In this document: positions 4,738-18,141 of the stretch, piece by piece
Numbering within the stretch: the stretch's first letter is position 1
How the letters are laid out: each line of letters opens with the position of its first letter
Origin: an uncultured Methylobacillus sp.
GTDB taxonomy: Bacteria > Pseudomonadota > Gammaproteobacteria > Burkholderiales > Methylophilaceae
Assembly (NCBI GenBank): GCA_946478865.1
Contig: CAMLDO010000037.1
Coordinates: 1 to 18,141 of the forward strand
Length of the DNA: 18,141 nt
Direction of reading: 5' to 3'
Position numbers and translations under genes: made by a program
The notes under the pieces: generated by a model
What the model saw: the letters and a program-made list of their open reading frames with translations, nothing else
Databases searched by the model: none
Told to the model about the DNA's origin: nothing

Positions 4738-4820
4738 GCTGCTTCCCCTTTGAAAGAAAGACTGCTTATTGTTGTTGTGCGCCCTTGCAGCGCGTGAGCA
4801 GTATAACGCGGAGTCGGCAG

Positions 4821-5873
4821 CTAACGACGGGGCCGGATAATTTTGCGACGCAGCAGGTACATCGTGAGCCCGGTCACCATGAGGATGGCGGGGACCAGCC
4901 CGGACGCGAACAGCAGCCAGGTATGCCAGCCACCTAGCACTTCACCGGTATGCAGCGGGTATGCCCAATTGAACCATTGGCGTCCCGCATCAGCCTTTGC
5001 AATGGGAATATTTTTCACGATTTGGCCGGTATACGGATCGAGATAAATGAAATTCAGCCCATTGGTATGCGGGTCATCCGGCATGCGCTTGCGCACCAGT
5101 ACTGGTTTATCGGCAGCCCCAGGAATCGCTATGATGCTGACGCGTCCGCCAGGCATGTTCTGATTGGCTATAGCGACGAGCCGATCAAGCGGCAGCCTCG
5201 CGTCGCCTGCCAATACTTTGGGAATCTTCGGGGTGGATTTATCGAACATCCGATTGAGGAAATCGGTCGTGGGCGCAGAAAAACAGAGCGTGATCCCCGT
5301 AATCAATGCCACCAGGAGCGCCGGCAAAGCCAGAATGCCGGCTTGGGCGTGCAGGTCATGGTGCGTGAGAAACAGGCTGCGGCCGAATCGCATCTGCCAC
5401 AAGGTTTTCCAGGTACGGGGCAGCCACAGAACCAGCCCCATGATAGTCAGCGCGAGGAAGCCGACGGCGAGCCATCCGGCTACTTTTTCTCCCGGCTTGC
5501 CATTCAGCAACTCGGAATGCATCTCGAACATCCAGCCGCTCGGCCAGTAATCGGAAGGTCGGACTTCGATAATCCTGCCGCTGTACTGGTCGATGACGAT
5601 GTGCGTCGAGTATTCCGGACCTCCCCAAACCTGATAGGCGCGGTCATTCCTGCTCGACATGCGAAGCAGGATATCGCCCGACGGCAGCATGGGCGCCGCC
5701 TTGTCGAGCAGAGTTTGCAGCGGCAGCGATTCGGCCTGAGTGTCCAGGCGATAACCGGGGCTGGCAATCTCACGCTCGTAGATCAACCAGCAACCCGACA
5801 AGGTGATGACGACCATCGCCAACCCGAGCGTCAGCCCGAGCCAGCGATGCAACCAGCGCAACGCAGCTTTCAT
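4821..5873 (-). CDS. PepSY-associated transmembrane protein, iron-uptake operon
   Basis: A 350-residue PepSY/TM-helix inner-membrane protein. Four predicted membrane spans: near the start (LHRWLGLTLGLAMVVITLSG), about 130-150 (AGWLAVGFLALTIMGLVLWL), about 180-205 (ILALPALLVALITGITLCF) and near the C-terminus (LLFASGLVPAILMVTGL). Periplasmic PepSY-type segments lie between them. The HRW at the start of span 1 and the HHDLHA motif before span 3 are histidines typical of the family. Such proteins accompany siderophore receptors and are thought to assist periplasmic reductive release of iron from the siderophore; that role is inferred from family and context. I chose the ATG at 5873, 4 nt after the receptor stop; a longer frame would overlap the receptor. 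Confidence 0.88.
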   Translation of the reverse strand: MKAALRWLHRWLGLTLGLAMVVITLSGCWLIYEREIASPGYRLDTQAESLPLQTLLDKAAPMLPSGDILLRMSSRNDRAYQVWGGPEYSTHIVIDQYSGRIIEVRPSDYWPSGWMFEMHSELLNGKPGEKVAGWLAVGFLALTIMGLVLWLPRTWKTLWQMRFGRSLFLTHHDLHAQAGILALPALLVALITGITLCFSAPTTDFLNRMFDKSTPKIPKVLAGDARLPLDRLVAIANQNMPGGRVSIIAIPGAADKPVLVRKRMPDDPHTNGLNFIYLDPYTGQIVKNIPIAKADAGRQWFNWAYPLHTGEVLGGWHTWLLFASGLVPAILMVTGLTMYLLRRKIIRPRR

Positions 5874-5877
5874 GCGA

Positions 5878-7935
5878 TCAGAAGTCAAACTTGACGCTAG
5901 CCTTGACGGTGCGCGGAGCGCCAACGCCGAGGAAACCGTTGCCTGCGGTATTCCAGTAGTTCTTGTCGGTCAGATTATCCACGACCAGTTGGAAGGTCGT
6001 TTGCTCGCCGCCAACCTTGGTCACGTAGCGGGCGCCAGCCGTATAGGTGGTGTAGCCGCCGATGAATGCCTGGTTCTGGTTGTTAACTGCACGCTCACCC
6101 ACGTAGAACATACCACCGCTCAAGGCGAGCCCCGGCACGGAAAGCAGACGGTACTCCGCGAACAGGCTGGCCGTCTTCTCCGGCGTGTTTTCCGGCGTCT
6201 TGCCGTAGGTAGAGGCATTAGCCCGGTTTAACTGCTCTGCATCCATCAGCATGGCCGAAGCAGCCAGCGAAAGGCGCGGCAGGATTTCGCCGGTAGCCGT
6301 AAATTCCAGCCCTCGGTATTCGGCCAAGCCGTTAAGTCCGAAGATATTGGTAACTGGGTCCGTGAAGGTCGATGGACGTTCGATCTCGAAATAAGCCAGC
6401 TGCAGAAGCAGGTTATGCAGTACCTGCGACTTGATGCCGAACTCGTGCTGCTTCGACTTCACCGGGTCGAGTACATCGCCGTTATTGGCAGCAGTTGCAG
6501 GTGCCTGGCCACTTTCTTCCAGGCCTTCGACATAGCTGGCGTATACCGACGTATTCGGGAACAACTTGTACAACAGCGAAACCGAAGGCGACACTTCGTT
6601 GGCGCTATAGTCATCCTGGTCATAATTGCTGGCGCGTGCGCCGACCATGGCCTGCCAGCGATCACCAATCAGGATGCGGTCGAACAGGTAGAAGCCGCGA
6701 TCGTAAATGATAGGGTTGGAGAATCCGGTGGGTGCATTGGGTCCGACCGCTGCGATATCTACCGGATTGTAATAGTTCTGCGTGAAATCCTTGTTGGCGT
6801 AGTTGGTGGTCCGGCTTTCGCGTTTGTTGGCGGTATAACCGAATGACACCTCGTTGATCACGCTGCCCATCGGAATGCGTCCGAAAAGTTCGGTACGTAC
6901 GTTATCGTTGATGAACTCCTGGTCGCGCGTATAAGAAACACGCAAAGTACCCGCTCCTGTCGCCATATTGCTGAAGCGAAACTGCGAGAAATTACGGTCG
7001 CGCTCGGTTTCAGCGTGGCCGGTTTCAAACAGCAAGGACCAATTGTCATTAAAGACGTAATCTGTGCGGAACAGAATGTTGGTGGCTTCGGCATCGTACT
7101 TCTGCCATTCGCTTGCGTGATTACGCTCTGCCGGCGGAGTACGCGGAAGCGCGATACGGCCGTTTACAGCTGCCGGCAATGCAATCGCAGCCTGTTCGGA
7201 AACATCCTTGCGGTAATGTTCGATGTCGAGCTTGAAGGCCAGGTTATCGGTTGCACGCCAATCCAGGGCCACAGCTTCCAGCGCCCGATGGCCTGAAAAG
7301 TTGTCGATGCCGATATCTTCTTTGCCCGTGACAAGGTTAATACGCGCACCGAACTCCTGACGCTCGCCGAATCGCTTGCCGTAATCCACATGCGCGGACA
7401 TCGCACCGAACTCGTTGGCGCCGAGGGTAACGCTCTTTACCTCTTTCGGTCCGGCACGCTTTGTCACCATGTTCACGATGCCTGAGGGCGGCACAAAACC
7501 GTAATATAGGGAGGAAGCGCCTTTCAATACCTCTACTCGCTCCTTGTTTTCCAGAGGAATGTCGATCAGGTTGATGATCGGAAGCGAGCCGTTGAGGCGA
7601 TAATTTCCCCGATTCTCGACCAGGATGCCGCGAATGGAGATATTGTCGTAAGTCGAACCATTCAGTTGCGAGCGCGTTACGCCCGCGGTATTCCGCAGCG
7701 CACCGAAGAGACTATTCGTTGCCTGAGCGTCAAGCACTTCACGCGTCACGACATTAGTCGTGAGCGGTACATCAACCGGATCCATGTCGCGAAACGTACC
7801 GACCTGCACGGTTTTCGAACTATAGCTGCCGGTATTTTCAGCACGAACTTCGATTTCTTCGAGTTGGATCAGATCTTCTGCATAAGCGGGAGGAATAGTT
7901 GCCAGAACGAGCAACCAGACTTTCTTGAGTTTCAC
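5878..7935 (-). CDS. TonB-dependent siderophore receptor
   Basis: An outer-membrane ferric-siderophore receptor, 685 residues. A signal peptide (MKLKKVWLLVLATIPPAYA, cleavage before EDLIQ) is followed by a TonB-box-like segment (EEIEVRAE). The plug domain occupies about 45-160, with NTAGVTR, ISIRGI, the RVEVLKGASSLYYG segment and the SGIVNMVTKRA end. The remainder is a 22-strand-type beta barrel ending in the classical terminal phenylalanine (KASVKFDF). This matches the TonB-dependent siderophore receptor class; the ligand cannot be told from sequence. The upstream region carries a Fur-like box over the promoter, so iron repression is expected. The PepSY gene follows after 4 nt and is certainly co-transcribed. 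Confidence 0.95.
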   Translation of the reverse strand: MKLKKVWLLVLATIPPAYAEDLIQLEEIEVRAENTGSYSSKTVQVGTFRDMDPVDVPLTTNVVTREVLDAQATNSLFGALRNTAGVTRSQLNGSTYDNISIRGILVENRGNYRLNGSLPIINLIDIPLENKERVEVLKGASSLYYGFVPPSGIVNMVTKRAGPKEVKSVTLGANEFGAMSAHVDYGKRFGERQEFGARINLVTGKEDIGIDNFSGHRALEAVALDWRATDNLAFKLDIEHYRKDVSEQAAIALPAAVNGRIALPRTPPAERNHASEWQKYDAEATNILFRTDYVFNDNWSLLFETGHAETERDRNFSQFRFSNMATGAGTLRVSYTRDQEFINDNVRTELFGRIPMGSVINEVSFGYTANKRESRTTNYANKDFTQNYYNPVDIAAVGPNAPTGFSNPIIYDRGFYLFDRILIGDRWQAMVGARASNYDQDDYSANEVSPSVSLLYKLFPNTSVYASYVEGLEESGQAPATAANNGDVLDPVKSKQHEFGIKSQVLHNLLLQLAYFEIERPSTFTDPVTNIFGLNGLAEYRGLEFTATGEILPRLSLAASAMLMDAEQLNRANASTYGKTPENTPEKTASLFAEYRLLSVPGLALSGGMFYVGERAVNNQNQAFIGGYTTYTAGARYVTKVGGEQTTFQLVVDNLTDKNYWNTAGNGFLGVGAPRTVKASVKFDF

Positions 7936-8000
7936 GATAACTTTTCCACGAATAGCGATTAAACACGGCTACAAAGGGTGCGTGCCGTTAGAAAGTCGCC

Positions 8001-8006
8001 ATTATA
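8001..8006 (-). promoter_or_regulatory. -10 box of the siderophore receptor promoter
   Basis: Read on the minus strand this is a perfect TATAAT, about 65 bases before the receptor ATG at 7935. The upstream -35 candidate (GATAAC, 16 bases before) matches the consensus poorly. That is common for promoters in which a Fur site occupies the -35/-10 spacer. Confidence 0.6.
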
Positions 8007-8008
8007 AA

Positions 8009-8031
8009 TGAGAATAATTCTTGTTATCTCA
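8009..8031 (-). promoter_or_regulatory. Fur box-like operator
   Basis: An AT-rich imperfect inverted repeat with arms TGAGAATAA and TTATCTCA around a short centre. It resembles the Fur consensus GATAATGATAATCATTATC and covers the region immediately upstream of the TATAAT at 8001-8006. Fur with bound Fe(II) would block RNA polymerase here, fitting the siderophore receptor-PepSY operon it precedes. The assignment rests on sequence likeness and context. Confidence 0.75.
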
Positions 8032-8076
8032 TTTTTTGTATCGTGAAAGCTTTATCTCCGGCGCCAAACAACATGA

Positions 8077-9276
8077 TCAATGCCCTGGAATCGGGCTGGC
8101 CTTGCGTTTGGGGGCGTATTTGTCGTTGATGCTGCCGTCGGGTTCGAGAATTTTCTGTTCGCGCGTCCACAGATTGAGGGCACGCTGCTTCATTGCCATG
8201 CTGGGATAAGTACGTTCGATGATAACCATGCCGAATAACTGGCGAAACTGCGCCTTATAGGCCTTGCTTTCGGGTTTGCCAGCGGAGGTATTGGGATTCT
8301 TGAGCATCTCGTCCACTTCGCTATCGCTGAATGCGAGTGAATTCTGTGCAGGATCGCCGCCCGCCCCGGCTTTATCTTGAGTCGAGGCGAGCGGCTGCGG
8401 CTGGGGGTCTGTCTGCAGGGATTCGGCATCGGGCGCAGGGTTGGGCACTGCAGCCACGGATTCGGAAATGGCCGGATTGGACTGGGGCACGATGTCTTCC
8501 GGAATGGGAAGCACGGCGGGTGGATCGGGCGCGACGCCGGAAGTCCGGAAGTCCGATTGCGGCGGCATCTCGAAATTGGCCGCCTCCGGCAACGGCCTGT
8601 ACTCGTTGTGGGCAGCTTCGGCGCGTTCTGCCTTTTCGCGCAGCAGATCGGGACGGGATTCGCGCAGGTTGAAATACACGCCGCTGGCACCGACCGCGAG
8701 GATGGCGAAAAACACCAGCGCCAGCACGATCATGATGGTGGCGTTGTCATGATCGCTGGAAGCGTTGCTGCGTTTGCGCTTCGGCTCCGGCGTGGTGATC
8801 TCGACATCGGAATCCTGCTGGATACGCCGATGGAGGGCTTCCGCGCTCAGCATCGGTTCATCCTCCGGCAAGGACAATTCCCGCTGGCGGGCCGAAGGCA
8901 TGGGAGCAGCCGGCTCGCGCCCGGACTTAATCGCCTCTCTTGGTGCGGCTGGCGCAGTCGTTTTCTGCCTGCGCGGGATAACCTCCGGCGCGGCTACCGC
9001 AGCCGCGTATCCAGAGGACGTAGCTTCACGCTTGGGAGCGGCAGGCGGAGGCTCGCGCCGGGGAGGCGGAGGTGTCGGCTCGCGTTTCGGCGGCGTGGCA
9101 GCCGCCTGAGCCGTATCCTGCGGCAAGACGTCGCGTGCGGCGGATCGCCGGTAACGCATGCCCGGCTGTGGGCCGGGGATAGGCGCTTGTGCAACAGCCG
9201 GTTTCAATGACTGACCGCACTCGTCGCAGAACTTCGCGCCAGGTCGGTTCACCGCACCGCATTTCGTGCAGATCAT
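8077..9276 (-). CDS. zinc-ribbon protein with proline-rich linker and one transmembrane helix
   Basis: A 399-residue protein starting at the ATG with AAGGAGAAT in front; a longer frame to 9342 has no better site. The N-terminal zinc ribbon has two CxxC knuckles (C3, C6, C17, C20: MICTKCGAVN, FCDECG). A long disordered Pro/Ala/Arg-rich stretch follows (about 25-175), then one membrane span (about 181-203, IMIVLALVFFAILAVGASG). After another Pro/Asp-rich linker comes a compact C-terminal segment (about 335-385) with YKAQFRQLFGMVIIERTYP. This suggests a cytoplasmic metal-bound sensor tethered to a periplasmic domain, but orientation is not proven. I know of zinc-ribbon membrane proteins of this general plan and cannot name a function. 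It follows the BCAM0308-like gene by 117 bases. Confidence 0.8.
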   Translation of the reverse strand: MICTKCGAVNRPGAKFCDECGQSLKPAVAQAPIPGPQPGMRYRRSAARDVLPQDTAQAAATPPKREPTPPPPRREPPPAAPKREATSSGYAAAVAAPEVIPRRQKTTAPAAPREAIKSGREPAAPMPSARQRELSLPEDEPMLSAEALHRRIQQDSDVEITTPEPKRKRSNASSDHDNATIMIVLALVFFAILAVGASGVYFNLRESRPDLLREKAERAEAAHNEYRPLPEAANFEMPPQSDFRTSGVAPDPPAVLPIPEDIVPQSNPAISESVAAVPNPAPDAESLQTDPQPQPLASTQDKAGAGGDPAQNSLAFSDSEVDEMLKNPNTSAGKPESKAYKAQFRQLFGMVIIERTYPSMAMKQRALNLWTREQKILEPDGSINDKYAPKRKASPIPGH

Positions 9277-9346
9277 CGGATTCTCCTTATTGCCCGCCCA
9301 CGGATGCCGCTGCATGCGTGCATCGTCTGTAGAAACAGGCACTTTT

Positions 9347-9363
9347 CGGCAGCAGCGCTGCCG
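9347..9363. other. perfect hairpin between the BCAM0308-like and zinc-ribbon genes
   Basis: CGGCAGC (9347-9353), a three-base loop, then GCTGCCG (9357-9363): a seven-pair perfect stem in a 117-base gene gap. On the transcribed minus strand it is followed by AAAAG and not by a T run, so it is not a standard intrinsic terminator. It could attenuate, act as an mRNA processing or stability element, or be chance in GC-rich DNA. Confidence 0.35.
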
Positions 9364-9393
9364 GTTGAAACCCCGGAAAAGAAAATAAAGGCG

Positions 9394-9903
9394 CTAGCGC
9401 GTCCAGTGGACGCGCAGCAGATCGCGGGCGGCGTTATGGTGATATTCGAGATCGCCCTGATAGTGGTGGTGCAAAGCCGCGCCAAGGAAGTGGGCGAGCC
9501 GGATATCGGTGGTTGTAATCAGCATGTAGCCATCGTCGCGCGCCTCCTCCATGAGGCGCATCAATGGATTTTCCAGCCGTTTGCGTTCCGCCTGATCGTG
9601 TAGCAGCGCGATGATCTCATCGAAGTGCTCGCCGAAAAATGCTCCGCTCAGCAGAAGATAGCCGGCCGGCTCGTGCTTCTCGATACGATCGCAGGCGGGG
9701 CATATGGCCTGGTTGGCGCTGACCGGAACCGGCCCCCAGCGCCAACGCCCTTCCATGTAGATGGCGTCGCATTTCGGGCATACCGTGGGCTCCAGCAGCT
9801 TAGTCGCGGCTTCCAGATAAGCCTTCTTTGCCCGCTCCTCGAAGAACACCTCGTCAGGCAGAATGGGGTTGTAACCGAAGGACAGGTCCTTGGGGATCTC
9901 CAT
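9394..9903 (-). CDS. BCAM0308-like protein with two CxxC knuckles
   Basis: A 169-residue cytoplasmic protein. After MEIPKDLSFGYNPILPDEVF and a helix it has a four-cysteine zinc site (C42-P-K-C45 and C68-P-A-C71 followed by DRIEKHEPAGYL). A C-terminal alpha/beta region follows with DDGYMLITTTDIRLAHFLG and a histidine-rich stretch (HHHYQGDLEYHHN). This matches what I recall of the BCAM0308 family, named after a gene in the Burkholderia cenocepacia low-oxygen-activated region; its biochemical role is unknown. The knuckle spacing and the phrase CPxCDRI loosely recall NMD3-like zinc domains, so ribosome or RNA association is possible but only an inference. AAGGAGA precedes the ATG. It lies 21 nt after HPF-cold-shock copy 1, so they form one transcript. 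Confidence 0.72.
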   Translation of the reverse strand: MEIPKDLSFGYNPILPDEVFFEERAKKAYLEAATKLLEPTVCPKCDAIYMEGRWRWGPVPVSANQAICPACDRIEKHEPAGYLLLSGAFFGEHFDEIIALLHDQAERKRLENPLMRLMEEARDDGYMLITTTDIRLAHFLGAALHHHYQGDLEYHHNAARDLLRVHWTR

Positions 9904-9924
9904 ACCGTCTCCTTGTCTTGTGAC

Positions 9925-10479
9925 TCAATGCAAGCGGGGGTTATGGTGGCGCCCCACGCTCACACGCTTGGCCTGCGGACCCTCGCTGCTCAGCTCATCG
10001 ATGAATTTCACCTCATCGCCCGCTTTCAGCTGATCGAAGGTCGTGCTGGTAACGTTGTCGCGATGAAAATAATGCAGAGTGCCGTCCGGGCTCTCGATGA
10101 AGCCATATCCTTCTTCCGGATGAATCTTGCTGACCAGCCCCACCTGCTCCTGCGCATGCACCTTGGTCTCGCGGCGCAGTTTGCGCACATAGCCTTCCAG
10201 CTGGCGCTTGGCGAGCTCGAATGCCTCGCGCACGGCAGCATACGGATCTTCGTGATGGTCGCGGTTGACGACGATCTCGTTGCCGTGAACACCCATGTCG
10301 ATGCGTACGTTGAACTGGTTGCCTCGCTGGTTGTGCCGGTGCGGCATATCCACCACTACGCGGCACGATACGAGCTGCCTGCAAAACCCCTCCAGTTTCG
10401 CCACTTTTTCGCGGATAACGGTTTCAAGGGCATCGGAATGGGGCATGTCGCGTATGGTGATCTGCAACGGAACTTGCAT
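9925..10479 (-). CDS. HPF/RaiA ribosome-hibernation domain fused to a cold-shock domain, copy 1
   Basis: A 184-residue two-domain protein. Residues 1 to about 100 are an S30AE (HPF/RaiA/YfiA) fold: LQITIRDMPHSDALE, the RVVVDMPHRH strand, GNEIVVNRDHHEDPYAAVREAF. Residues about 112-178 are a cold-shock OB domain with an RNP1-like EEGYGFIESPDG, an RNP2-like HYFHRDNV and the ending GPQAKRVSVG. HPF domains bind the decoding centre of the 30S subunit and stop translation. Long HPF forms normally carry a dimerisation domain where this one has an RNA-binding cold-shock domain. The ATG at 10479 is chosen for its CAGGAGGA; the frame extends 19 codons further with no comparable site. It is about 60% identical, without gaps, to copy 2 (12134-12682). 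The BCAM0308-like gene follows in operon. Confidence 0.92.
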   Translation of the reverse strand: MQVPLQITIRDMPHSDALETVIREKVAKLEGFCRQLVSCRVVVDMPHRHNQRGNQFNVRIDMGVHGNEIVVNRDHHEDPYAAVREAFELAKRQLEGYVRKLRRETKVHAQEQVGLVSKIHPEEGYGFIESPDGTLHYFHRDNVTSTTFDQLKAGDEVKFIDELSSEGPQAKRVSVGRHHNPRLH

Positions 10480-10725
10480 GACGGTCCTCCTGAAAAATCG
10501 TTGGGCACTGCCTGAATACCCGGCAGCCCTCTGCACACTTATCCCCGTGCTACAGACGCATACCGGCCTTACAGGATGTGATCACAACTTTGCGGCAAGG
10601 TTCTCGCGGGCAGGAGCCCGTTCAGGCCATTTTCCGGCAGCCGGTAAAACTTTATGGGAACTGAGGGCGTCTCAAGGGATGGCCGCCGCATACGGCCCGG
10701 CCATTTGATCAATAGGAGAATTCAT
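10480..10725. promoter_or_regulatory. divergent control region between HPF-CSD copy 1 and the DUF3330 gene
   Basis: A 246-base divergent spacer. It holds CGCATACCGGCCTTAC at 10557-10572, a shortened variant of the element at 16039-16061 (CGCATAC, then GGCC, then TTAC). It also holds a perfect ten-base palindrome TGTGATCACA at 10577-10586. The palindrome has the two CRP/FNR-type half sites abutting with no spacer, so it is not a normal CRP site. I could not fix -35/-10 boxes for either gene. No gene or terminator was seen. Confidence 0.4.
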
Positions 10726-10929
10726 ATGGAACAGCATTACATGGACCCGCGCGAGGAAGAAAAGATTTCCTGCGCCAGCTGCATGAAGGATATACCGCGC
10801 TCCGCAGCCAAAAGCTCGGAAGCATCCGGATATACCCTGTATTTCTGCGGTGCGGACTGCTACAACGAATGGAACCGCCAGGCGGAGCGCGCCCATCTCA
10901 AGCAACCTGCGGAACACCAAACCCGCTAA
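10726..10929 (+). CDS. DUF3330 small zinc-binding protein
   Basis: A 67-residue protein with a treble-clef-like metal site: C16-A-S-C19 near the start, then FCGADCYNEW supplying C41 and C45. This pattern (CxxC ... FCGxxCY) matches the DUF3330 proteins I remember, which are also found next to mercury-resistance and Tn3-type elements; no such element is present here. The ATG at 10726 has TAGGAG seven bases upstream and is preferred to the start at 10654, which lacks one. It is transcribed divergently from HPF-cold-shock copy 1 and convergently to the alcohol dehydrogenase. A redox- or metal-responsive role is suggested only by the cysteines and neighbours. Confidence 0.82.
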   Translation: MEQHYMDPREEEKISCASCMKDIPRSAAKSSEASGYTLYFCGADCYNEWNRQAERAHLKQPAEHQTR

Positions 10930-10964
10930 TCCCGCCTTACTTCTCACCACCGCAACACCTTCCG

Positions 10965-10981
10965 CGCCCGCGTTCCGGGCG
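10965..10981. other. hairpin in the convergent DUF3330/alcohol dehydrogenase spacer
   Basis: CGCCCG (10965-10970), a five-base loop, CGGGCG (10976-10981). It sits in the 132-base gap between the convergent DUF3330 and alcohol dehydrogenase stops, where a two-way terminator is expected. No T run follows on either strand, so termination is a weak inference from position. Confidence 0.25.
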
Positions 10982-11061
10982 GTACTCCCTGAAAAACGAA
11001 TACCTTCCGGCAAACCGGCGTGAGGGGTGGCTGCGCTCGTTTATTGCTGCCGACCCGTGCT

Positions 11062-12045
11062 TTACGGCATCAATACCGCCGCGCCGCGCACCCTGCCATG
11101 GCGCAGCGCATCCAGCGCCTCGTTGGCATGCTCCAGCGGATAGCGTTCCACCTCGGTGCGCACGCCAGCCTTCCAGGCCAGCTTGAGGAATTTCTCGCCG
11201 TCGCGCCGTGTGAGGTTTGCGACGGAACGCACGGTGCGCTCCCCCCACAGCAGATCGTAGGAAAACGCGGGAATCTCGCTCATGTGGATACCGGCGCAAA
11301 CCACGGTGCCGCCCTTGGCCGTGCGTTTCAAAGCCTCGGGGACCAATGCACCGACCGGTGCAAAAATGATGGCGGCATCCAGGAGTTCGGGAGGCGGTTC
11401 GGTACTGCCGCCGGCCCAGACGGCACCGAGCTCGCGGGCGAATTGCTGGCCTGGCGTGTCGCCGGGTTTGGTGAAGGCATAAACCTGTCGCCCCTGCGTC
11501 CTGGCAAGCTGGGCGACAATATGGCCTGCGGCGCCAAAACCGTAGATACCCAGCCGATACGCATCGCCCGCCGCCAGCAGAGAACGGTAGCCGATCAGCC
11601 CGGCACAAAGCAGCGGCGCGGCTTCCGCATCGCTGTATCCCTCGGGAATCGCAAAGCAGTAGCGCTGGTTGGCAACGGCGTATTGCGCATAGCCGCCGTC
11701 CAGCGTGTAACCCGTGAACTGCGCCTGATCGCACAGGTTCTCGCGCCCGCTGCGGCAATAGAGACAGTGTCCGCATGTCAGGCCCAGCCACGGAACGCCG
11801 ATGCGCTCGCCGATAGCGAAACGTATCGTTCCCGGCCCGATTGCCGCCACAGTGCCGACGATTTCATGGCCAGGCACCAGTTGATGTTTCGGATGCTCCA
11901 GCTCGCCGTCCACGACATGCAAGTCGGTGCGGCATACTCCACAGGCGCTGACCTTCAGCAAAAGCTCACCCGCCTTCGGTTCGGGTACGGGCAATTCAGC
12001 CGGTACCAGCGCATGCTGGGTGGCGTCGAGCATCATTACTTTCAT
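11062..12045 (-). CDS. zinc-dependent alcohol dehydrogenase
   Basis: Medium-chain (MDR) zinc alcohol dehydrogenase, 327 residues. The catalytic zinc ligands C35 (ACGVCRTDLH), H60-E61 (PGHE) and C147 (PLLCAGLIGYRSL) are present. The structural zinc site has C91, C94, C97 and C105 (CGHCLYCRSGRENLC). The Rossmann motif is YGFGAAGHIVAQLA at about 168-181. It oxidises alcohols or, more likely in an anaerobic setting, reduces aldehydes such as acetaldehyde with NAD(P)H. I chose the ATG at 12045 (MKVMMLDATQ), the family's usual beginning; the frame continues 59 codons upstream into low-complexity sequence overlapping the HPF gene. The ribosome binding site is weak (GGAA). It follows HPF copy 2 by 88 bases and is probably the last gene of the nitroreductase-CBS-HPF transcript. 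Confidence 0.93.
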   Translation of the reverse strand: MKVMMLDATQHALVPAELPVPEPKAGELLLKVSACGVCRTDLHVVDGELEHPKHQLVPGHEIVGTVAAIGPGTIRFAIGERIGVPWLGLTCGHCLYCRSGRENLCDQAQFTGYTLDGGYAQYAVANQRYCFAIPEGYSDAEAAPLLCAGLIGYRSLLAAGDAYRLGIYGFGAAGHIVAQLARTQGRQVYAFTKPGDTPGQQFARELGAVWAGGSTEPPPELLDAAIIFAPVGALVPEALKRTAKGGTVVCAGIHMSEIPAFSYDLLWGERTVRSVANLTRRDGEKFLKLAWKAGVRTEVERYPLEHANEALDALRHGRVRGAAVLMP

Positions 12046-12133
12046 CGATATTCCATTCGCAGTAGCGGCACACAAGGGCGCCGGGCCGGAGGCAAGTGCT
12101 CCGACCCGGCGATTCTCGGTTATTTTTTCAGAC

Positions 12134-12682
12134 TTATTGCGGGATATGGTGCTTGCCGATACTGATGCGCTTGGCTTGTGGCCGGCCGGAGGCGAATTCC
12201 TCCACGAAGCGCACTTCGTCACCTTCTTTCAGCTTCTCGAAGCGGGGAGCGACGACGTTGTCGCGATGAAAATACAACTCGGTACCGTCCTTGCCGGCGA
12301 TGAAGCCGAAGCCTTCCTCGTGGGAAATCCGCGCAATATGGCCGCTGTATTCCGCCACATGCGCCTTGGTCTCGCGGCGCAGGCGGTGCACATAGTCTTC
12401 CAGTTGCCGCCGCGCGGCGTCGAACGCATCGCGCAGAGCCACGTACGGGTCTTCATGATGACGGCGATTGACGACGATTTCGTTGCCGGGCACGCCGAGG
12501 TCGATATTGACGCCGAATTCCTTGCCCTGCTGGTGATGCCGATGTGGCATTTCCACCACCACGCGGCAGGAAATCACATGCGCGAACAAGGCTTCCAGCT
12601 TCCTGATCTTGTCGCGGATGTGGGTTTCGAGCGCTTCAGAGTTGGGCATATCGCGCAGGGTGATTTGTAGCGATGCAGGCAT
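12134..12682 (-). CDS. HPF/RaiA ribosome-hibernation domain fused to a cold-shock domain, copy 2
   Basis: A 182-residue paralogue of the gene at 9925-10479, colinear without gaps over the alignable length. I counted about 110 identities. The S30AE domain is residues 1 to about 100 (LQITLRDMPNSEALE, RVVVEMPHRHHQQG, GNEIVVNRRHHEDPY). The cold-shock domain is about 112-178 (EEGFGFIAGKDG, YFHRDNV, RPQAKRISIGKHH). The most divergent stretches are the loop around residues 31-37 and the linker between domains (about 108-118). The expected role is ribosome inactivation combined with RNA binding during stress. The ATG at 12682 has AAAGGGG before it. A TTG 7 codons upstream overlaps the CBS stop and is a less likely start. 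It lies 17 nt after the CBS gene. Confidence 0.92.
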   Translation of the reverse strand: MPASLQITLRDMPNSEALETHIRDKIRKLEALFAHVISCRVVVEMPHRHHQQGKEFGVNIDLGVPGNEIVVNRRHHEDPYVALRDAFDAARRQLEDYVHRLRRETKAHVAEYSGHIARISHEEGFGFIAGKDGTELYFHRDNVVAPRFEKLKEGDEVRFVEEFASGRPQAKRISIGKHHIPQ

Positions 12683-12699
12683 GACTGACCCCTTTCTTA

Positions 12700-13149
12700 T
12701 CAACGACGTGTTTGTATTTCCTTCTGTTGCTCGCGCGTGACCATTCGGGCCAGCGCGTGCAATTCTTCGGACAGCAGCCCCAGCAGGTCGTCCAGGGTGA
12801 CGATACCGACCAGATCGCCGCTGTCGCTGACGAGGGGAAGGCGGCGCACGGCCATCGTGCGCATTTGCTGGATGGCCTCGAACAGGCCGACGCTTTCCTT
12901 CACCGTCATGAGCTCGGCCGACATGATGTCGCCGATGGTGAGCACTTCGGGGTCGAGGCCGGGCGCGACAATTTCCAGCACGATGTCCCGGTCGGTAATG
13001 ATGCCGACCGGCAATTCGCGACCGTCACGGTTTTGCACGACGACGACTGTCCCGACATGATGGTGGCGCATGAGCTGCGCCGCTTCATAAACACTGGTGT
13101 CGACGCTCGCGGTGACCACTTCCCTGGTGCAGAACTCTCCGAGAGGCAT
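12700..13149 (-). CDS. CBS-pair domain protein
   Basis: A 149-residue protein made almost only of two CBS domains, at about residues 8-62 (EVVTASVDTSVYEAAQLM, GTVVVVQNRDG, VGIITDRDIV) and about 74-130 (IMSAELMTVKESVGLFEAI, VRRLPLVSDSGDLVGIVTLDDLL). A short helical tail follows. Stand-alone CBS pairs bind adenosine nucleotides (AMP, ATP, NADH or S-adenosylmethionine) and act as energy or redox sensors for a partner protein. AAGGAGG precedes the ATG at good spacing. The gene sits 17 nt after the nitroreductase stop and 17 nt before HPF copy 2, so it is in the middle of an operon. Sensing energy state to tune ribosome hibernation is a reasonable inference, not shown. Confidence 0.92.
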   Translation of the reverse strand: MPLGEFCTREVVTASVDTSVYEAAQLMRHHHVGTVVVVQNRDGRELPVGIITDRDIVLEIVAPGLDPEVLTIGDIMSAELMTVKESVGLFEAIQQMRTMAVRRLPLVSDSGDLVGIVTLDDLLGLLSEELHALARMVTREQQKEIQTRR

Positions 13150-13166
13150 GCCGTGCCCTCCTTGGT

Positions 13167-13766
13167 CTATTGTTGTTCAACAGGTACCCGATTCAGAATG
13201 AGCGGCTCGCGGCGCGGTGTCGGCGGCGGCTCTTCCGCCGGATAACCCACGATGATGGGCGCCACCGCCGCATACTTTTGCGGAATGCCGAAGGCCGATT
13301 TGATGGAAGGCTCGTTCAGCGCCGTCAGGGCGCACCCCACCACGCAACTGCCCAGCCCCATCGCACACGCTGCCAGCATGAGGTTTTCCGCCGCCAGCCA
13401 GCTATCGGCCGCGGAAAACGGGCACGAGGTGTCGCCGCAGATGACGATCAGCGTGCCGGCATCGTAGAAGATATTGAAATCGGAATCCGCGAAGGTCTCC
13501 AGATCGTGTCTGGAACGCATCTGTCCGAGACGCCGCACCTCATCGAGGAAAAGCGGCTTGGCCAGGTCGGAAATATGTTGCAGCGCGGATTTGTCGTCGA
13601 TGACGGAGAAGGCCCAGGGTTCGCCATGGAAGGCGCTGGGCGCGTGGATGGCGGCTTCGAGCAGCAGGCGCACGACTTCGCGCTCAACCGGCTGGGAAGT
13701 GTAATGCCGGACGGAGCGTCTCGCCAGAATCGCCTCGTAGACATTCATTTCCACCGCGTGCCGCAT
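13167..13766 (-). CDS. nitroreductase-family flavoprotein
   Basis: Nitroreductase (NADH oxidase/flavin reductase-like) of 199 residues, an FMN enzyme that transfers electrons from NAD(P)H. The FMN-binding start ARRSVRHYTSQPVEREVV and the HAPSAFHGEPWAF motif are seen at about residues 16-54. Later come SWLAAENLMLAACAMGLGSCVVG (about 122-145) and the C-terminal PIIVGYPAEEPPP. The natural substrate is unknown. Two starts are possible: the ATG at 13766, with GAGG nine bases before, or an in-frame ATG at 13748 (MNVYEAIL), which is nearer the usual family start. It is the first gene of the run nitroreductase-CBS-HPF-alcohol dehydrogenase. Upstream lies the CGCATACGTG element. Confidence 0.9.
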   Translation of the reverse strand: MRHAVEMNVYEAILARRSVRHYTSQPVEREVVRLLLEAAIHAPSAFHGEPWAFSVIDDKSALQHISDLAKPLFLDEVRRLGQMRSRHDLETFADSDFNIFYDAGTLIVICGDTSCPFSAADSWLAAENLMLAACAMGLGSCVVGCALTALNEPSIKSAFGIPQKYAAVAPIIVGYPAEEPPPTPRREPLILNRVPVEQQ

Positions 13767-13834
13767 TCCTGAAACCTCGCCTCTTATGCGATTTCAAGGT
13801 AGCAAGTTTCAGCAGCGCATGACATCCGCGCAAA

Positions 13835-13844
13835 CACGTATGCG
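13835..13844 (-). promoter_or_regulatory. CGCATACGTG element upstream of the nitroreductase operon
   Basis: On the minus strand this reads CGCATACGTG, identical to the ten bases at 16039-16048. It lies about 69 bases before the nitroreductase ATG and about 55 bases before a possible -10 (CATAAG, 13788-13783). It is partly overlapped by the short palindrome ATGCGC-A-GCGCAT (13840-13852). It is proposed as a binding site of the adjacent FixJ-like regulator; the proposal rests on repetition and position. Confidence 0.45.
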
Positions 13845-13860
13845 CAGCGCATGAGGTTAG

Positions 13861-14481
13861 TCAGGCCGGAACGAGGCCGCCCTCCTGAGCAATACGGGCA
13901 AGGTCGAGCAGATTCAGCGCGCCGGTCTTGTGCATGATCTTCGCCTTGTGGATTTCCACTGTCCGGTGGCTGATGCCGAGACGGCGCGCAATTTCCTTGT
14001 TGGGATGGCCGACCACCGCCAGCAGCATCACCTCGCGCTCGCGTTCGGTCAGTTCATCCAGCAGCGCGCGGGTTTGCTGCATGCGTGTCACCTTTTCCAG
14101 CAGCTGCGAGCCCGACTGTACGGCGGCATGCACGCTCGTGATCAGCTTGTCGCGCGTGACCGGCTTGGTGAGGAAATCCACCGCACCCGCCTTGATCGCA
14201 CGCACGCTCATTGGAATATCGCCATGCCCGGTAAGGAAAATCACGGGCAACAGGATTCCACGCCGCGCCATTTCTTCCTGCAACTGCATCCCATCCATGC
14301 CTGGCATGCGGATATCGATGATCGCGCAGCCATAGGCGTCGGTTTTGCAACTTCCCAGGAAGGCTTCGGCGCTTTCGAATGCTCGCACGGGGAAATCCGC
14401 CTGCTCGATCATGAGACTTAACGAATCGCGAATCGCGGGATCGTCATCGATGATGAATACGGTCGCTGGGAGAGTGGTCAT
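13861..14481 (-). CDS. FixJ-like response regulator (receiver + LuxR-type HTH)
   Basis: Two-component transcription factor of 206 residues. The receiver domain (about 6-120) has the acidic pocket D12-D14, phospho-acceptor D56 (IIDIRMPGMDG), T84 (FLTGHGD) and K106 (FLTKPV), all intact. After a linker helix (LLEKVTRMQQTRALLDELT) comes the NarL/FixJ HTH (about 143-205) with LTEREREVMLLAVVGHPNKE and ISHRTVEIHKAKIMHKTGA. The GHGDIPMSVRAIKAGAVDFL stretch is the hallmark of the FixJ/TodT/StyR branch. The start ATG overlaps the kinase stop (ATGA), so kinase and regulator are coupled and very likely partners. Likely targets are the neighbouring stress genes. Confidence 0.94.
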   Translation of the reverse strand: MTTLPATVFIIDDDPAIRDSLSLMIEQADFPVRAFESAEAFLGSCKTDAYGCAIIDIRMPGMDGMQLQEEMARRGILLPVIFLTGHGDIPMSVRAIKAGAVDFLTKPVTRDKLITSVHAAVQSGSQLLEKVTRMQQTRALLDELTEREREVMLLAVVGHPNKEIARRLGISHRTVEIHKAKIMHKTGALNLLDLARIAQEGGLVPA

Positions 14482-15971
14482 GACGAAAATGGCAAAGTGA
14501 AATGAAAGATGCCGCCGCCGGGACTGGCATCCGCCCAGAGTTCACCGCCGTTGGCCTCGACCAGCGCGCGGCTGATTGCGAGCCCCATGCCCACGCCGCG
14601 CGACTTGGTGGTGAAAAACGGATCGAATATCCGCCGAGCCTGATCGGCATCGAGACCAGGGCCGCTATCCTGTACAGTCACCAGAGCAAATTTGCGATCC
14701 GCCATGGACTGGATGCGCACGAGGATCTCCCCGTCGTCCAACCCGTGCTCGCGCATCGCCTCACACGCGTTGCGCATGAGATTGACCAGCACTTTCTGAA
14801 TCTGCAAACGGTTGGCTTTGACCGGCGCCATTTCCAGCGGAAATTCAAGCACCTCGCGATACAGCCCTAGGCCATCGCTCTGCACGACAGCGGCGGCTTC
14901 GTTCACGACTTCCGCCAGGTCCATCGGCTCGGGGATGAGATCGCCCTGATGCAGAAACTCCATGAGCTCGTGCAGCTTGCTCCCCGCACGCTGCGCCTGC
15001 TCGACACAGCAGTTTAGCGCACGTGTCAGCTTTTCCGGCGCCTCGATATGGTTCAGCTCGTGCAGCGCGACCTCGCTATAGGCCGAGAGTGCGGCCAACG
15101 GCTGGTTGAGCTCGTGGGCGATCGCGGAGGCCGTCTGCGCCGCCACCTGGCGCTTGAGCAGGGTTTCCATCGCTCCCCGCTGCTCGCGCAGCTTGAGCTC
15201 CGACTGCTTCTGCTCGGTAATTTCCTGGATCACCCCCACCACCCGCACCGGCTGCCCGTCCTCGAAAATGACTCGCCCGGTCGAGGCGATCCAGCGCGCT
15301 TCGTTGTCGCCTGGCCGCAGGACACGGAAATCAGCGCGGTACTCGCCATTGCCCGCAGGATCGAAGGCCCGCTCCAAGGCCGCCTGGCGCGGAATGCGGT
15401 CATCAGGATGTATGAGTTCGAGGAATTGTTCGTAGGTGATGCCGTCCTCCGGCAAGCCGAGAATAGCGAGCGAGCGGGCATCCCAGTGCAGCGTGTCGCT
15501 GCCGAGATCGCGGTCGAACACACCGAGCCCGGCGGCATCTTCGGCAAGACGCAGGCGCTCCTCGCTTTCCTGCAGCAGGCGCTGTGCCTCACGGTTATAG
15601 GTGGCATCGAAAAAAGAAATCAGGACGTAGGTGCGGCCCTGATGCAGCAGCGGGCTCAGGCCGATATCGACTTGCAGCTCCCGTCCATCGCGGCTCAGCG
15701 CCAGCAGATTGCGTCCACGTCCCATCGGGCGCTTCTCGGGGCGGGAAACATACTGACGCATGTAACGTTGGTGGTGTTCGCGCAAACGCGGGGGTATCAG
15801 CATCTCGACAGGCTGGCCGTGTAGCTCATCGCCAGAGTAACCGAACAACTGCCAGGCAACCGGATTGGACACCTGCATGACGCCATCGCTGTCCGCCAGC
15901 ACCAGGGCTTCTGCCGACGCTTCAAACAGGCTGTAAAAACCCAGATCTTTCAGTGGATTGGAAAATTCCAC
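14478..15971 (-). CDS. double-PAS sensor histidine kinase, FixL-like
   Basis: A 497-residue kinase without membrane spans, so a cytoplasmic sensor. PAS 1 is about residues 12-125. It contains REHHQRYMRQY and GRGRN followed by SRDGRELQVDIGLSPL; H67 aligns with the haem-binding histidine 200 of Bradyrhizobium FixL and the arginine of GRGR with FixL R220. PAS 2 is about 138-256 (LGVFDRDLGSDTLHWD, HPDDRIPRQAALERAF). The H box is AIAHELNQPL with phospho-acceptor H286. The N box is NLMRNACEAM (N401), G1 DSGPGL, F box FDPFFTTK, G2 GVGMGLAI. The start codon is GTG at 15971, preceded by GGGGGAG. It overlaps the response regulator by four bases. Oxygen or redox sensing is inferred from the FixL likeness; many non-haem PAS domains share this histidine. 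Confidence 0.92.
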   Translation of the reverse strand: MEFSNPLKDLGFYSLFEASAEALVLADSDGVMQVSNPVAWQLFGYSGDELHGQPVEMLIPPRLREHHQRYMRQYVSRPEKRPMGRGRNLLALSRDGRELQVDIGLSPLLHQGRTYVLISFFDATYNREAQRLLQESEERLRLAEDAAGLGVFDRDLGSDTLHWDARSLAILGLPEDGITYEQFLELIHPDDRIPRQAALERAFDPAGNGEYRADFRVLRPGDNEARWIASTGRVIFEDGQPVRVVGVIQEITEQKQSELKLREQRGAMETLLKRQVAAQTASAIAHELNQPLAALSAYSEVALHELNHIEAPEKLTRALNCCVEQAQRAGSKLHELMEFLHQGDLIPEPMDLAEVVNEAAAVVQSDGLGLYREVLEFPLEMAPVKANRLQIQKVLVNLMRNACEAMREHGLDDGEILVRIQSMADRKFALVTVQDSGPGLDADQARRIFDPFFTTKSRGVGMGLAISRALVEANGGELWADASPGGGIFHFTLPFSS

Positions 15972-16164
15972 CCGACTCCCCCACGTGGCCTAGCCGATAG
16001 CTTACGCCAATTGTCCGAACCTCCGCAATTCAGCTTTCCGCATACGTGCAGGCCCTTACGTGCTTACCCGCATTTTGACTTGAAACCAAGCGCGCTAAAG
16101 TGCTGTCCATCCGGTCATTAGATGATTTGTCAGGGGTTAGTTAAATCATTTCACGGAGCCCGCA
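15972..16164. promoter_or_regulatory. divergent promoter region, kinase/regulator versus DUF2934-PAS
   Basis: A 193-base divergent spacer. For the plus-strand operon a possible sigma-70 promoter is TTGACT (16075-16080) with TAAAGT (16096-16101), spacer 15, slightly short. Directly upstream of that -35 lie CGCATACGTG (16039-16048) and GCCCTTACGT (16052-16061), followed by GCTTACCC. This is the position where an activating FixJ-type regulator would bind. No convincing kinase promoter could be fixed. Confidence 0.45.
16039..16061 (+). promoter_or_regulatory. tandem CGCATACGTG / GCCCTTACGT element
   Basis: Two TACGT-containing ten-mers separated by three bases. The first recurs exactly at 13835-13844 (opposite strand, before the nitroreductase). 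The second recurs exactly at 1501-1510 (before the small membrane protein). A contracted version is at 10557-10572. Its end is 13 bases before a TTGACT -35 candidate. Suggested operator of the neighbouring two-component regulator. Confidence 0.45.
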
Positions 16165-16359
16165 ATGAAAACCAGCAGAGTCAAAAACAAGGCGGCCATC
16201 TCACCTGCCGCATTAACCATGCAACAGCAATCACAGCCTCCATCCGAGAGTATCGCCGAGCAAGTCGCAATAGCAGCGTATTTCAAGGCAGAAGCGCGAG
16301 GATTCGAACCCGGCCACGAACTCGAAGACTGGCTGGCCGCGGAAAGCGAGGTGCATTGA
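16165..16359 (+). CDS. DUF2934 domain small protein
   Basis: A 64-residue protein. The N-terminal half (MKTSRVKNKAAISPAALTMQ and a Gln/Pro/Ser stretch) is basic and probably disordered. Residues about 28-64 form the DUF2934 motif: SIAEQVAIAAYFKAEARGF followed by EPGHELEDWLAAESEV. The domain is widespread in small bacterial proteins and its function is unknown. GGAG lies eight bases before the ATG. The stop overlaps the next start by one base (TGATG), so the two products are translationally coupled. It heads the operon divergent from the kinase. Confidence 0.88.
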   Translation: MKTSRVKNKAAISPAALTMQQQSQPPSESIAEQVAIAAYFKAEARGFEPGHELEDWLAAESEVH

Positions 16360-16775
16360 TGGCTACCCAGCTAAAACCGCCTGCCACGACCGGACACGTG
16401 CATACCGAATTTACAGAATCCACCACCGACGAGCCTGCGGTATTCACTCTGGATGCCAATGGCCTAATCCGCAACTGCAACAAGGCTGCCGGTCAACTGC
16501 TCGGATGCTCCAGCAGTTTGCTGGTGTGGCAACACGTCTCGAACATCCTGCCTCAGCTGTCAGGCACAACGCTGATGCTGGACGGCCACGTCAATCCCCG
16601 ACTGCGTTTCCTCTCCCGTATCGGGCATCACTTCCAACTCGCCATTCCTGGCGGCAAGCGCGATTCAGGACGCATTTTCATCAATGATCTGGAAAATGCG
16701 GGGCGCCATATCGTCCGCCTGATCGTCTATCCCGACGGGCATCCGACACTGACTGACAGTCCTCAACACCACTAG
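16359..16775 (+). CDS. solo PAS-like domain protein
   Basis: A 138-residue protein. After a polar N-terminus (about 1-25) it has a PAS-like core: AVFTLDANGLIRNCNKAAGQ, LLGCSSSLLVWQHVSNILPQL, a less typical middle, then GRIFINDLENAGRHIVRLIV as the last strands. No output domain is present, so it is either a ligand-bound adaptor or modulator, perhaps for the neighbouring PAS kinase, or a remnant of a larger sensor. The start at 16359 is set by the TGATG overlap with DUF2934; a longer frame from 16122 would read through that gene in another frame. The PAS assignment is by pattern (DxxGxIxxxNxAxxxLxG) and is moderately sure. A terminator follows 18 bases after the stop. Confidence 0.75.
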   Translation: MATQLKPPATTGHVHTEFTESTTDEPAVFTLDANGLIRNCNKAAGQLLGCSSSLLVWQHVSNILPQLSGTTLMLDGHVNPRLRFLSRIGHHFQLAIPGGKRDSGRIFINDLENAGRHIVRLIVYPDGHPTLTDSPQHH

Positions 16776-16793
16776 CCGGCAGGCTTTCCACAG

Positions 16794-16828
16794 CGCAGGC
16801 CCATGCAATATGAGCCTGCGATTTTTTT
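16794..16828 (+). terminator. rho-independent terminator of the DUF2934-PAS operon
   Basis: Stem CGCAGGC (16794-16800) with GCCTGCG (16814-16820), seven perfect pairs. The 13-base loop can add a short inner CAT/ATG stem. It is followed by A and seven T (16822-16828). It stands 18 bases after the PAS gene stop, exactly where an intrinsic terminator is expected. Confidence 0.88.
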
Positions 16829-16956
16829 GCCGGCTGTTTGCTCTTCCGGCGAACCTTCCCCAGCCCCTCACTGTCCTTTCTGAAGTCAACCGCATCGAAA
16901 AGAAACGACGCGCCTGAACCGCGCCGACCTCCCGCCAACCCGAGACTGGGGGAAAA

Positions 16957-17748
16957 ATGAAGGAGCCCGAAACGTACCCGCATTTATGGCGCGGACTGCC
17001 GGAACGCGTGCGGCTGCCCGTACCCATGATTCCGCAGCCGGATGAAACCACCTGCGGCCCGACCTGCCTCAACGCCATCTATCGATACTGGGGAGAGGAC
17101 GAGCGCCTCCTGGATAGCATTGGTCGCACCTGGAAAATGGAACGCGGCGGCACTTTCGCGGTTTTTCTCGCCTGCGACGCCTTGCGCAAGGGTTACAAGG
17201 CGACCATTTACACCTATAACCTGCTGGTGTTCGATCCCACCTGGTTTCGGCCAGGCGTGGATATCGCCGAACGTCTGCGGGCGCAACGTGCGCTCAAGCA
17301 GGATCCCCGGCTGCAGCACGTGACCGAGGGGTATCTGGAATTCCTCAGCCTGGGCGGAAAATTGCGACTGGCCGATCTTTCACGGCACCTGATACGCGGC
17401 TGGCTGCGGCGCCGCATTCCCATACTCACCGGGCTCAGCTCGACTTTCCTGTACCGCGCACCCCGCGAGTTCGGCTTGCAGGACGTGCCGGACGATGTGC
17501 AAGGCACGCCATCCGGGCATTTTGTCATCCTCTCCGGATACGACCGCAATGCGCGGACCGTGCTGGTATCGGACCCTTATCAGCCTCATCCCTACGGCAA
17601 GCAACTGGAATACTGGATTAATATCGACCGGCTCATCGGCGCAATCATGCTGGGTATCGTCACGCACGATGCCAATATGCTGGTCATTCATTCTCCGCGC
17701 GTCACTACGGTTGGAGGGCTCGATGCAACCGCTGATCGTGGTCAATAA
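16957..17748 (+). CDS. stand-alone C39-like cysteine peptidase
   Basis: A 263-residue cytoplasmic protein with the papain-like C39 fold. Q27 (oxyanion) and C33 lie in PQPDETTCGPTCLNAIYRYWG, H188 in SGHFVILSGYD and D206 in VLVSDPYQP, so the Cys/His/Asp set is complete. No signal peptide, membrane span or ABC ATPase domain is present, unlike bacteriocin exporters in which C39 removes a double-glycine leader. Family members of this soluble kind occur beside RimK-like ATP-grasp ligases; here the RLAN/RimK gene starts 26 bases before this gene ends. The ATG has GGGGGA in front. Possible roles are hydrolysis of, or trimming before, an ATP-grasp-made amide bond; the substrate is unknown. Promoter elements were not recognised. 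Confidence 0.85.
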   Translation: MKEPETYPHLWRGLPERVRLPVPMIPQPDETTCGPTCLNAIYRYWGEDERLLDSIGRTWKMERGGTFAVFLACDALRKGYKATIYTYNLLVFDPTWFRPGVDIAERLRAQRALKQDPRLQHVTEGYLEFLSLGGKLRLADLSRHLIRGWLRRRIPILTGLSSTFLYRAPREFGLQDVPDDVQGTPSGHFVILSGYDRNARTVLVSDPYQPHPYGKQLEYWINIDRLIGAIMLGIVTHDANMLVIHSPRVTTVGGLDATADRGQ

Positions 17749-18141
17749 TCTTCCCGACTGGCCATTCGATATACCCGGCGTGCATGTCGTTTCCGCCCGC
17801 AGCTATCTCAGCGATCCCGCTTTCGGGCAGGACCGCAATTTCAAGGTTTACAACCTGTGCCGCTCGCACCACTACCAGAGCCTGGGCTATTACGTCTCGC
17901 TGCTCGCCGAAGCGCGCGGACACAAGCCGATTCCGCGTGCCAGCGCCATGGAGGACGTGCAGTCGCAGAATCAGATCCGGCTGCTGACAGGCGGTATCGA
18001 TGACCTTATCCAGCACGCGCTGGCGCCGATCAAGTCCGACCGCTTCGAGCTAAGCGTGTATTTCGGGCGCAATATCGCCCATCGCTACGACAAGCTGAGC
18101 CTGGAACTTTTCGATCTGCTGCAAGCGCCGCTGCTCAAGGC
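17723..18141 (+). CDS. RLAN-domain RimK-like ATP-grasp protein, 5' part (runs off window)
   Basis: An open frame from ATG 17723 (GGAGGG upstream, inside the end of the C39 gene) to the right edge with no stop, about 139 codons. The product begins MQPLIVVNNLPDWPFDIPG. It contains FKVYNLCRSHHYQSLGYYVS then LLAEARGHKPIPRAS, and later FELSVYFGRNIAHRYDKLS. This is the RLAN domain (RimK-like ATP-grasp N-terminal), normally followed by an ATP-grasp ligase domain that adds amino acids, often glutamate, to a protein or peptide carboxylate. The ATP-grasp part itself lies outside the window, so ligase activity is inferred from family architecture. The 26-base overlap with the C39 gene points to co-translation and joint function. 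Confidence 0.85.
   Translation, partial: MQPLIVVNNLPDWPFDIPGVHVVSARSYLSDPAFGQDRNFKVYNLCRSHHYQSLGYYVSLLAEARGHKPIPRASAMEDVQSQNQIRLLTGGIDDLIQHALAPIKSDRFELSVYFGRNIAHRYDKLSLELFDLLQAPLLK

Follow-up and report, generated by a model that had tools for sequence, protein, structure and literature searches.

The 18,141-nucleotide stretch analysed here (the window; contig CAMLDO010000037.1 of assembly GCA_946478865.1, from an uncultured Methylobacillus sp.) carries, between positions 8077 and 16775, a compact island in which a PAS-domain sensor kinase and a FixJ-like response regulator lie among genes for two HPF-cold-shock fusions (HPF1 and HPF2), a CBS-pair protein, a nitroreductase, a zinc alcohol dehydrogenase (ADH) and a protein of the BCAM0308 family. 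On balance, we favour the reading that this is a growth-arrest (dormancy) island, in which a dedicated FixJ-type two-component switch acts on a ribosome-hibernation cassette. Genome comparison shows linkage of the kinase and regulator genes with those for nitroreductase, CBS, HPF and BCAM0308 proteins within one family; it also shows that a stereotyped candidate promoter, made up of the element TACGTGYTYRCRCGGATT, a distance of 21 nt and a TAnnnT box, precedes the target genes. The regulon was read in the genomes of relatives (150 from the family and 300 from the order). The novelty lies in a fixed-spacing promoter of the FixJ type that is joined to genes for HPFcold and CBS proteins, and in the NMD3-like protein encoded in the same island; the literature searched described neither such a module nor a hibernation role for BCAM0308.

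Kinase, regulator and promoter element

The kinase (14478..15971, minus strand) is a soluble PAS-PAS-HisKA-HATPase protein with a FixL-like kinase core, whose orthologues adjoin the regulator in relatives. The regulator (13861..14481, minus strand) consists of a receiver and a LuxR-type helix-turn-helix; the domains of both proteins score above the Pfam cut-offs. The arrangement is that of FixLJ, with a soluble PAS kinase followed by a regulator of the FixJ/NarL type. In contrast with FixLJ, however, both proteins fall below the equivalog cut-offs (247 bits against 850 for FixL, 214 bits against 255 for FixJ), and the pair is adjoined by hibernation genes. The first PAS domain of the kinase has a histidine at the haem-ligand position in 8/8 sequences, and the position of the FixL arginine is occupied by R in four, K in three and T in one, the roles of both positions being those known from FixL. 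A histidine at the haem-ligand position is also common in PAS domains that are not known to bind haem. Oxygen is a plausible signal for the predicted sensor. The mycobacterial DosRS system is reported to control a similar dormancy regulon, including nitroreductases and stress proteins, under hypoxia.

The nearest genome found is that of Methylobacillus sp. MM3, the one confirmed locus (78%) in a contig scan with the BCAM0308 protein, a scan which finds close relatives only. Nearly the whole gene set is kept in order: kinase, regulator, nitroreductase, CBS, HPF2, a second BCAM0308 gene, ADH, three more genes, DUF3330, HPF1 and BCAM0308, followed by zinc ribbon, DUF808, methyltransferase and alanine dehydrogenase; DUF2934 and PAS are oriented divergently to the kinase. 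Neither the second BCAM0308 gene nor the three genes between ADH and DUF3330 occur in the window. An AAA_33 protein, an AHSA1-like protein and an NnrU-like membrane protein lie within the MM3 island (L001:5609-8670).

BCAM0308 was found in 20 of the 150 genomes of MM3's family, in 17 of them over the cut-off, and all of the 20 except one (G139) are regulator-positive. Around the 20 matches, kinase, regulator, nitroreductase, CBS and BCAM0308 lie together in six stretches (L028, L031, L032, L036, L037 and L041) and in a looser or cut-off grouping in two (L029 and L039); the remaining 12 have no kinase-regulator pair in the stretch covered, some of the contigs being short. When about 1.5 kb on each side of the regulator was read, the nitroreductase adjoined it in 19/30 loci. 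The interpretation of the sequence-only reading is supported to this extent: the genes form a conserved unit, and kinase and regulator belong to it. A plasmid search with the kinase at E 1e-60 gave no match.

In the window the element occurs twice. One copy, TACGTGTTTGCGCGGATG (13823..13840, minus strand), lies upstream of the nitroreductase operon and is followed, 21 nt further on, by the -10-like box TACCTT (13796..13801, minus strand); the other, TACGTGCTTACCCGCATT (16057..16074, plus strand), lies upstream of the DUF2934 and PAS genes, with the box TAAAGT (16096..16101, plus strand), read from the sequence, at the same distance. Both were located by pattern and matrix searches. The scoring matrix, built from the relatives' sites with the window excluded, gave them 24.8 and 20.3, respectively, while the best of 300 first-order Markov windows reached 19.95. 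The full 21-base pattern has one match in the window, with 2 mismatches, against an expectation of 0 from 200 shuffles. A 12-base version of the element was at chance level (9 found, 10.2 expected), and therefore only the full element with its box was used.

The spacing is very regular. Among 49 distinct sites inside the family loci retrieved, many further matches lying outside these loci, TAnnnT starts exactly 21 nt after the element in 37/40 with at most one mismatch and in 8/9 with two, while no other offset from 4 to 33 exceeds 8/40; the box was not included in the pattern that located the element. Outside the family it stands at this position in 1/14 sites, and the genome with that one site (G359) is BCAM0308-positive. 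A search of 8000-17000 for sigma-70 consensus pairs gave none, against 2.6 expected, which would fit activator-dependent promoters.

The element also co-occurs with the regulator. Side-by-side reading found it upstream of the nitroreductase in 10 relatives as well as in the window. A pattern search then placed TACGTGYTYRCRCGGATT, at no more than one mismatch, in 27 of the 150 family genomes, against six for a reversed control pattern; the element had been defined from 10 of these 27, and the other 17 played no part in its definition. The regulator was found in 34 genomes (E 1e-50, with scoring limited to 20 candidates per genome). Each of the 27 genomes with the element is regulator-positive, and none of the 116 regulator-negative genomes has the element (Fisher 1.2e-23, from our own count of the overlap and with shared ancestry ignored). 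Of the 20 family genomes with BCAM0308, 16 have the element, and 11 element-bearing genomes are without BCAM0308. Seven regulator-positive genomes have no element at this stringency: in two of them (G033 and G045) it occurs with two mismatches upstream of CBS, with the box in register; in G024 there is no nitroreductase on the regulator contig in the stretch covered; and in G090, G096, G102 and G137 the kinase-regulator pair has no adjoining nitroreductase. As an order-level signal the element was rejected, being at background (13/300 genomes, MM3 included, against 9 for the control). BCAM0308, by contrast, occurs in 43 of 300 order genomes. The predicted control through the element is a feature of the family.

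The gaps between nitroreductase, CBS, HPF2 and ADH are short (17, 14 and 79 bases, the second becoming -4 with the upstream HPF2 start), so that the four genes probably form one operon. The sequence-only reading had proposed that the island has its own control, with upstream elements shared between the regulator and its targets. At the level of sequence this is well supported for two transcription units, nitroreductase-CBS-HPF2-ADH and DUF2934-PAS, by the element in the window and by its co-occurrence with the regulator; upstream of the HPF1-BCAM0308-zinc-ribbon genes and of DUF3330, neither pattern nor matrix search of the window found the element. Kinase and regulator very probably control part of the island. 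The gap between DUF3330 and HPF1 contains a 27-base stretch with TGTGATCA (10577..10603, no strand assigned), which is conserved with MM3 and possibly controls the HPF1-BCAM0308 genes; it fits no familiar regulator box.

In relatives the element precedes nitroreductase, PAS, DUF2934, BCAM0308 or CBS homologues, varying by genome; PAS usually lies about 300 nt beyond it, with DUF2934 in between where seen. When other targets were taken as the longest frame within 420 nt, the element was seen upstream of a Memo-like gene (two genomes), a DksA/TraR-type zinc finger, YceI and DUF1451 (L058, L063, L089, L079 and L065), which suggests that the regulon is wider than the island in those relatives. The box of the YceI site is one base out of register, and the DUF1451 site has two mismatches. 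Archease and Hsp20 genes lie farther from the element, DUF2934 intervening in both Hsp20 cases. Many PAS-side sites in relatives have ATAAGGGC..GCCCT upstream, making an inverted repeat up to the element; in the window (16041-16074) a second TACGTG copy takes its place.

Predicted ribosome-hibernation proteins

Both fusion proteins, HPF1 (9925..10494, minus strand) and HPF2 (12134..12685, minus strand, with an alternative upstream start at 12703), score above cut-off for PF02482 and PF00313, the cold-shock domain being C-terminal, and they are 61% identical to each other. HPF2 matches the ribosome-bound HPFcold structure 9t0z with an E value of 1.5e-40. Like HPFcold of the CBU_0020 type, they combine an HPF domain with a cold-shock domain at equal length; unlike it, they occur in two copies, in an island with BCAM0308, CBS and regulator genes. 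Binding to ribosomes and to the anti-Shine-Dalgarno end is known for the Coxiella protein only. The hibernation role suggested for the island fits, because the fusion matches this structurally characterised protein. The CBS-pair protein (12700..13149, minus strand; PF00571 above cut-off) is a possible adenylate sensor. Archaeal HibA is likewise reported to combine CBS and HPF functions in ribosome hibernation, but as a single fused protein with four CBS domains, whereas the island has a separate CBS pair beside the HPF-cold-shock fusion.

The BCAM0308 protein (9394..9903, minus strand; 169 residues) scores 162 bits against the NF040826 model (cut-off 100). Pfam and fold comparison indicate that the BCAM0308 proteins resemble the zinc-finger and eL22-like, P-site part of NMD3, and databases label relatives as 'NMD protein'. 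The window protein itself reaches 14.9 bits with Pfam NMD3 (cut-off 24.9), while 8/8 relatives, chosen for a prior NMD3 label, pass the gathering score and 24/75 members match at E 1e-5 or better. In the fold comparison the eL22-like domain fold of NMD3 was matched; the eL31-like core was not matched in its entirety, nor was the SH3 or the OB domain, and the alignments stop at chain residue 248. Sequence searches of solved structures gave chance-level matches only. A weak casein-kinase-II-beta match, found in 1/22 members at E 0.1, was set aside. The likeness to NMD3 thus lies in the zinc finger and the eL22-like domain; in contrast to NMD3, the protein is bacterial, has only 169 residues and is associated with HPF genes, not with a known role in subunit assembly.

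Linkage of these genes is also seen elsewhere in the order. In the surroundings of 40 order-level BCAM0308 genes, which come from 39 genomes, a CBS homologue was found 15 times, HPF 13 times (one being merely a 36-residue piece), AAA_33 nine times and ADH six times. The distance from BCAM0308 to an HPF gene, as we read it, is at most 1 kb in 9/40 order genomes, at most 5 kb in 11 and at most 10 kb in 13; this count covers 40 of the 43 BCAM0308 genomes, with 75 HPF genes, MM3 and two genomes with partial hits being excluded. The chance expectation for the 1 kb distance is, by our estimate from about two HPF genes per multi-megabase genome, well below one. Conserved co-occurrence of the families singled out by the sequence-only reading is thus seen in other genomes. 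In other families HPF, CBS and BCAM0308 are kept together without a FixJ-type regulator, and often without the nitroreductase. As the CBS, HPF and NMD3-like genes are so often linked without the pair, the hibernation cassette looks like the core and the switch like an addition made by the family. The control genome, M. jannaschii, matched the BCAM0308 model below cut-off in one scan, and not in the family and order scans.

A possible sequence of events can be outlined. The soluble PAS kinase would respond to a signal in the cytoplasm, be it oxygen, redox or some other small ligand, and would phosphorylate the regulator, which would bind the element beside the -35 position and recruit RNA polymerase to nitroreductase-CBS-HPF2-ADH and DUF2934-PAS. 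HPFcold would fill the 30S decoding and mRNA channel and cover the anti-Shine-Dalgarno end, and the NMD3-like BCAM0308 protein would perhaps bind close to the P site of the large subunit. The CBS protein would report the adenylate state, nitroreductase and alcohol dehydrogenase would dispose of reducing power, and the kinase may receive feedback from the PAS protein. HPF1-BCAM0308, without an element in the window, would probably be under a second signal.

We tentatively propose, as a more specific idea in which we place rather less confidence than in the dormancy island as such, that the BCAM0308 family branched off in bacteria from the zinc-finger/eL22-like module of NMD3 and caps the 50S P site in dormancy, in concert with HPFcold on the 30S and an adenylate sensor of the CBS type. 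Both subunits would then be served by one hibernation system, which in one family has come under a FixJ-type regulator with a fixed-spacing promoter. This would give a testable function to a protein family named solely after an oxygen-induced Burkholderia gene and would link an NMD3-like fold to bacterial ribosome hibernation. If it is true, the protection of the large subunit in bacterial dormancy shares its origin with an archaeal/eukaryotic subunit-assembly factor. The promoter code would allow a dormancy-type regulon to be read from sequence in one family.

Relation to the lxa locus and other explanations

The island could instead be a compact version of the lxa (low-oxygen-activated) locus of Burkholderia cenocepacia (BCAM0275a-BCAM0323), to which the sequence-only reading had traced most of its families; it would then be an oxygen-limitation locus with a haem-binding FixL-like sensor. 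BCAM0308 and a zinc alcohol dehydrogenase are indeed common to both, and lxa also ends in a two-component pair. In Table 2 of PMC4981469 the locus includes BCAM0308, alcohol dehydrogenases and BCAM0322/0323; HPF, CBS and nitroreductase are not named there, though many of the entries are given simply as 'hypothetical'. The locus has six universal stress proteins, of which there is none among the 20 window proteins scanned, and its proposed regulators are CRP-family proteins, in contrast to the FixJ-type regulator with its own element found here. Little of the gene content is shared with Burkholderia stagnalis: within about 48-50 kb on either side of BCAM0308 on one replicon, HPF, CBS and nitroreductase had no match (E 1e-3), the ADH matches were 36% and 67%, and the kinase and regulator matches were weak, at about 29% identity. 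The gene next after BCAM0308 there is FtsH, which fits BCAM0309, the 'cell division-related metallo peptidase' of PMC4981469. Oxygen limitation gains some weight from the histidine conserved in all eight kinases and from two published sources: one in which the BCAM0308 protein rises in sequential chronic-infection isolates (PMC6127331), and one in which nitroreductase, CBS, Hsp20 and USP genes are among those listed with FixK2-type boxes in Bradyrhizobium (PMC9104804). The variable FixL arginine position speaks against a haem sensor of the FixL kind. Kinship with lxa therefore extends to BCAM0308 and the alcohol dehydrogenase; as a label for the island, judged by gene content, lxa is too narrow, and we consider that explanation unlikely.

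Somewhat less likely still is a redox or nitro-compound stress response, in which BCAM0308 and HPF would be passengers acting little on ribosomes. In many genomes it is the nitroreductase gene that directly follows the element, and the 11 element-bearing genomes without BCAM0308 point the same way; however, the linkage of HPF, CBS and BCAM0308 in families without the regulator, and often without the nitroreductase, speaks against this. It is also conceivable, though improbable, that some other factor recognises the element and box and that the kinase-regulator pair has a different target. Binding of the element by the regulator is a prediction, and in four genomes a related regulator occurs while the element is missing. 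Against this stand the presence of the regulator in all 27 element-bearing genomes and the position of the element between the kinase and DUF2934-PAS in both the window and MM3.

Remaining genes of the window

Profile searches of the translated frames bear out the gene list of the sequence-only reading, all the genes named being present. The nitroreductase-family protein, first gene of its operon, is at 13167..13766 (minus strand; PF00881, 108 bits, above cut-off) and ADH at 11062..12054 (minus strand; TIGR02822, 350 bits, cut-off 283.5). DUF3330 (10726..10929, plus strand; PF11809 above cut-off) is a small cysteine-containing protein, divergent from HPF1 as in MM3. The small DUF2934 protein (16165..16359, plus strand; PF11154, 50.6 bits) scores above cut-off; the solo PAS-like protein that follows (16359..16775, plus strand), which might exert feedback on the kinase, stays below the Pfam thresholds (18.4 bits, cut-offs 21.8 and 22.6), and its MM3 homologue, 60% identical, occupies the same place. 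Downstream of BCAM0308 lies a zinc-ribbon protein (8077..9276, minus strand; PF13240), with matching pieces at the same position in MM3. Band-7, PepSY and TonB-receptor genes (3949-7935) separate it from DUF808; as zinc ribbon and DUF808 are adjacent in MM3, these genes look inserted or rearranged in the window. Scans of the window for Rfam families (gathering) and tRNAs gave no match. Downstream of the PAS gene, a C39-like peptidase and a RimK-like ATP-grasp protein, the latter cut by the window end, occupy 16957-18139; their homologues, 68-71% identical, adjoin BCAM0308 directly in two order-level loci (L170 and L171).
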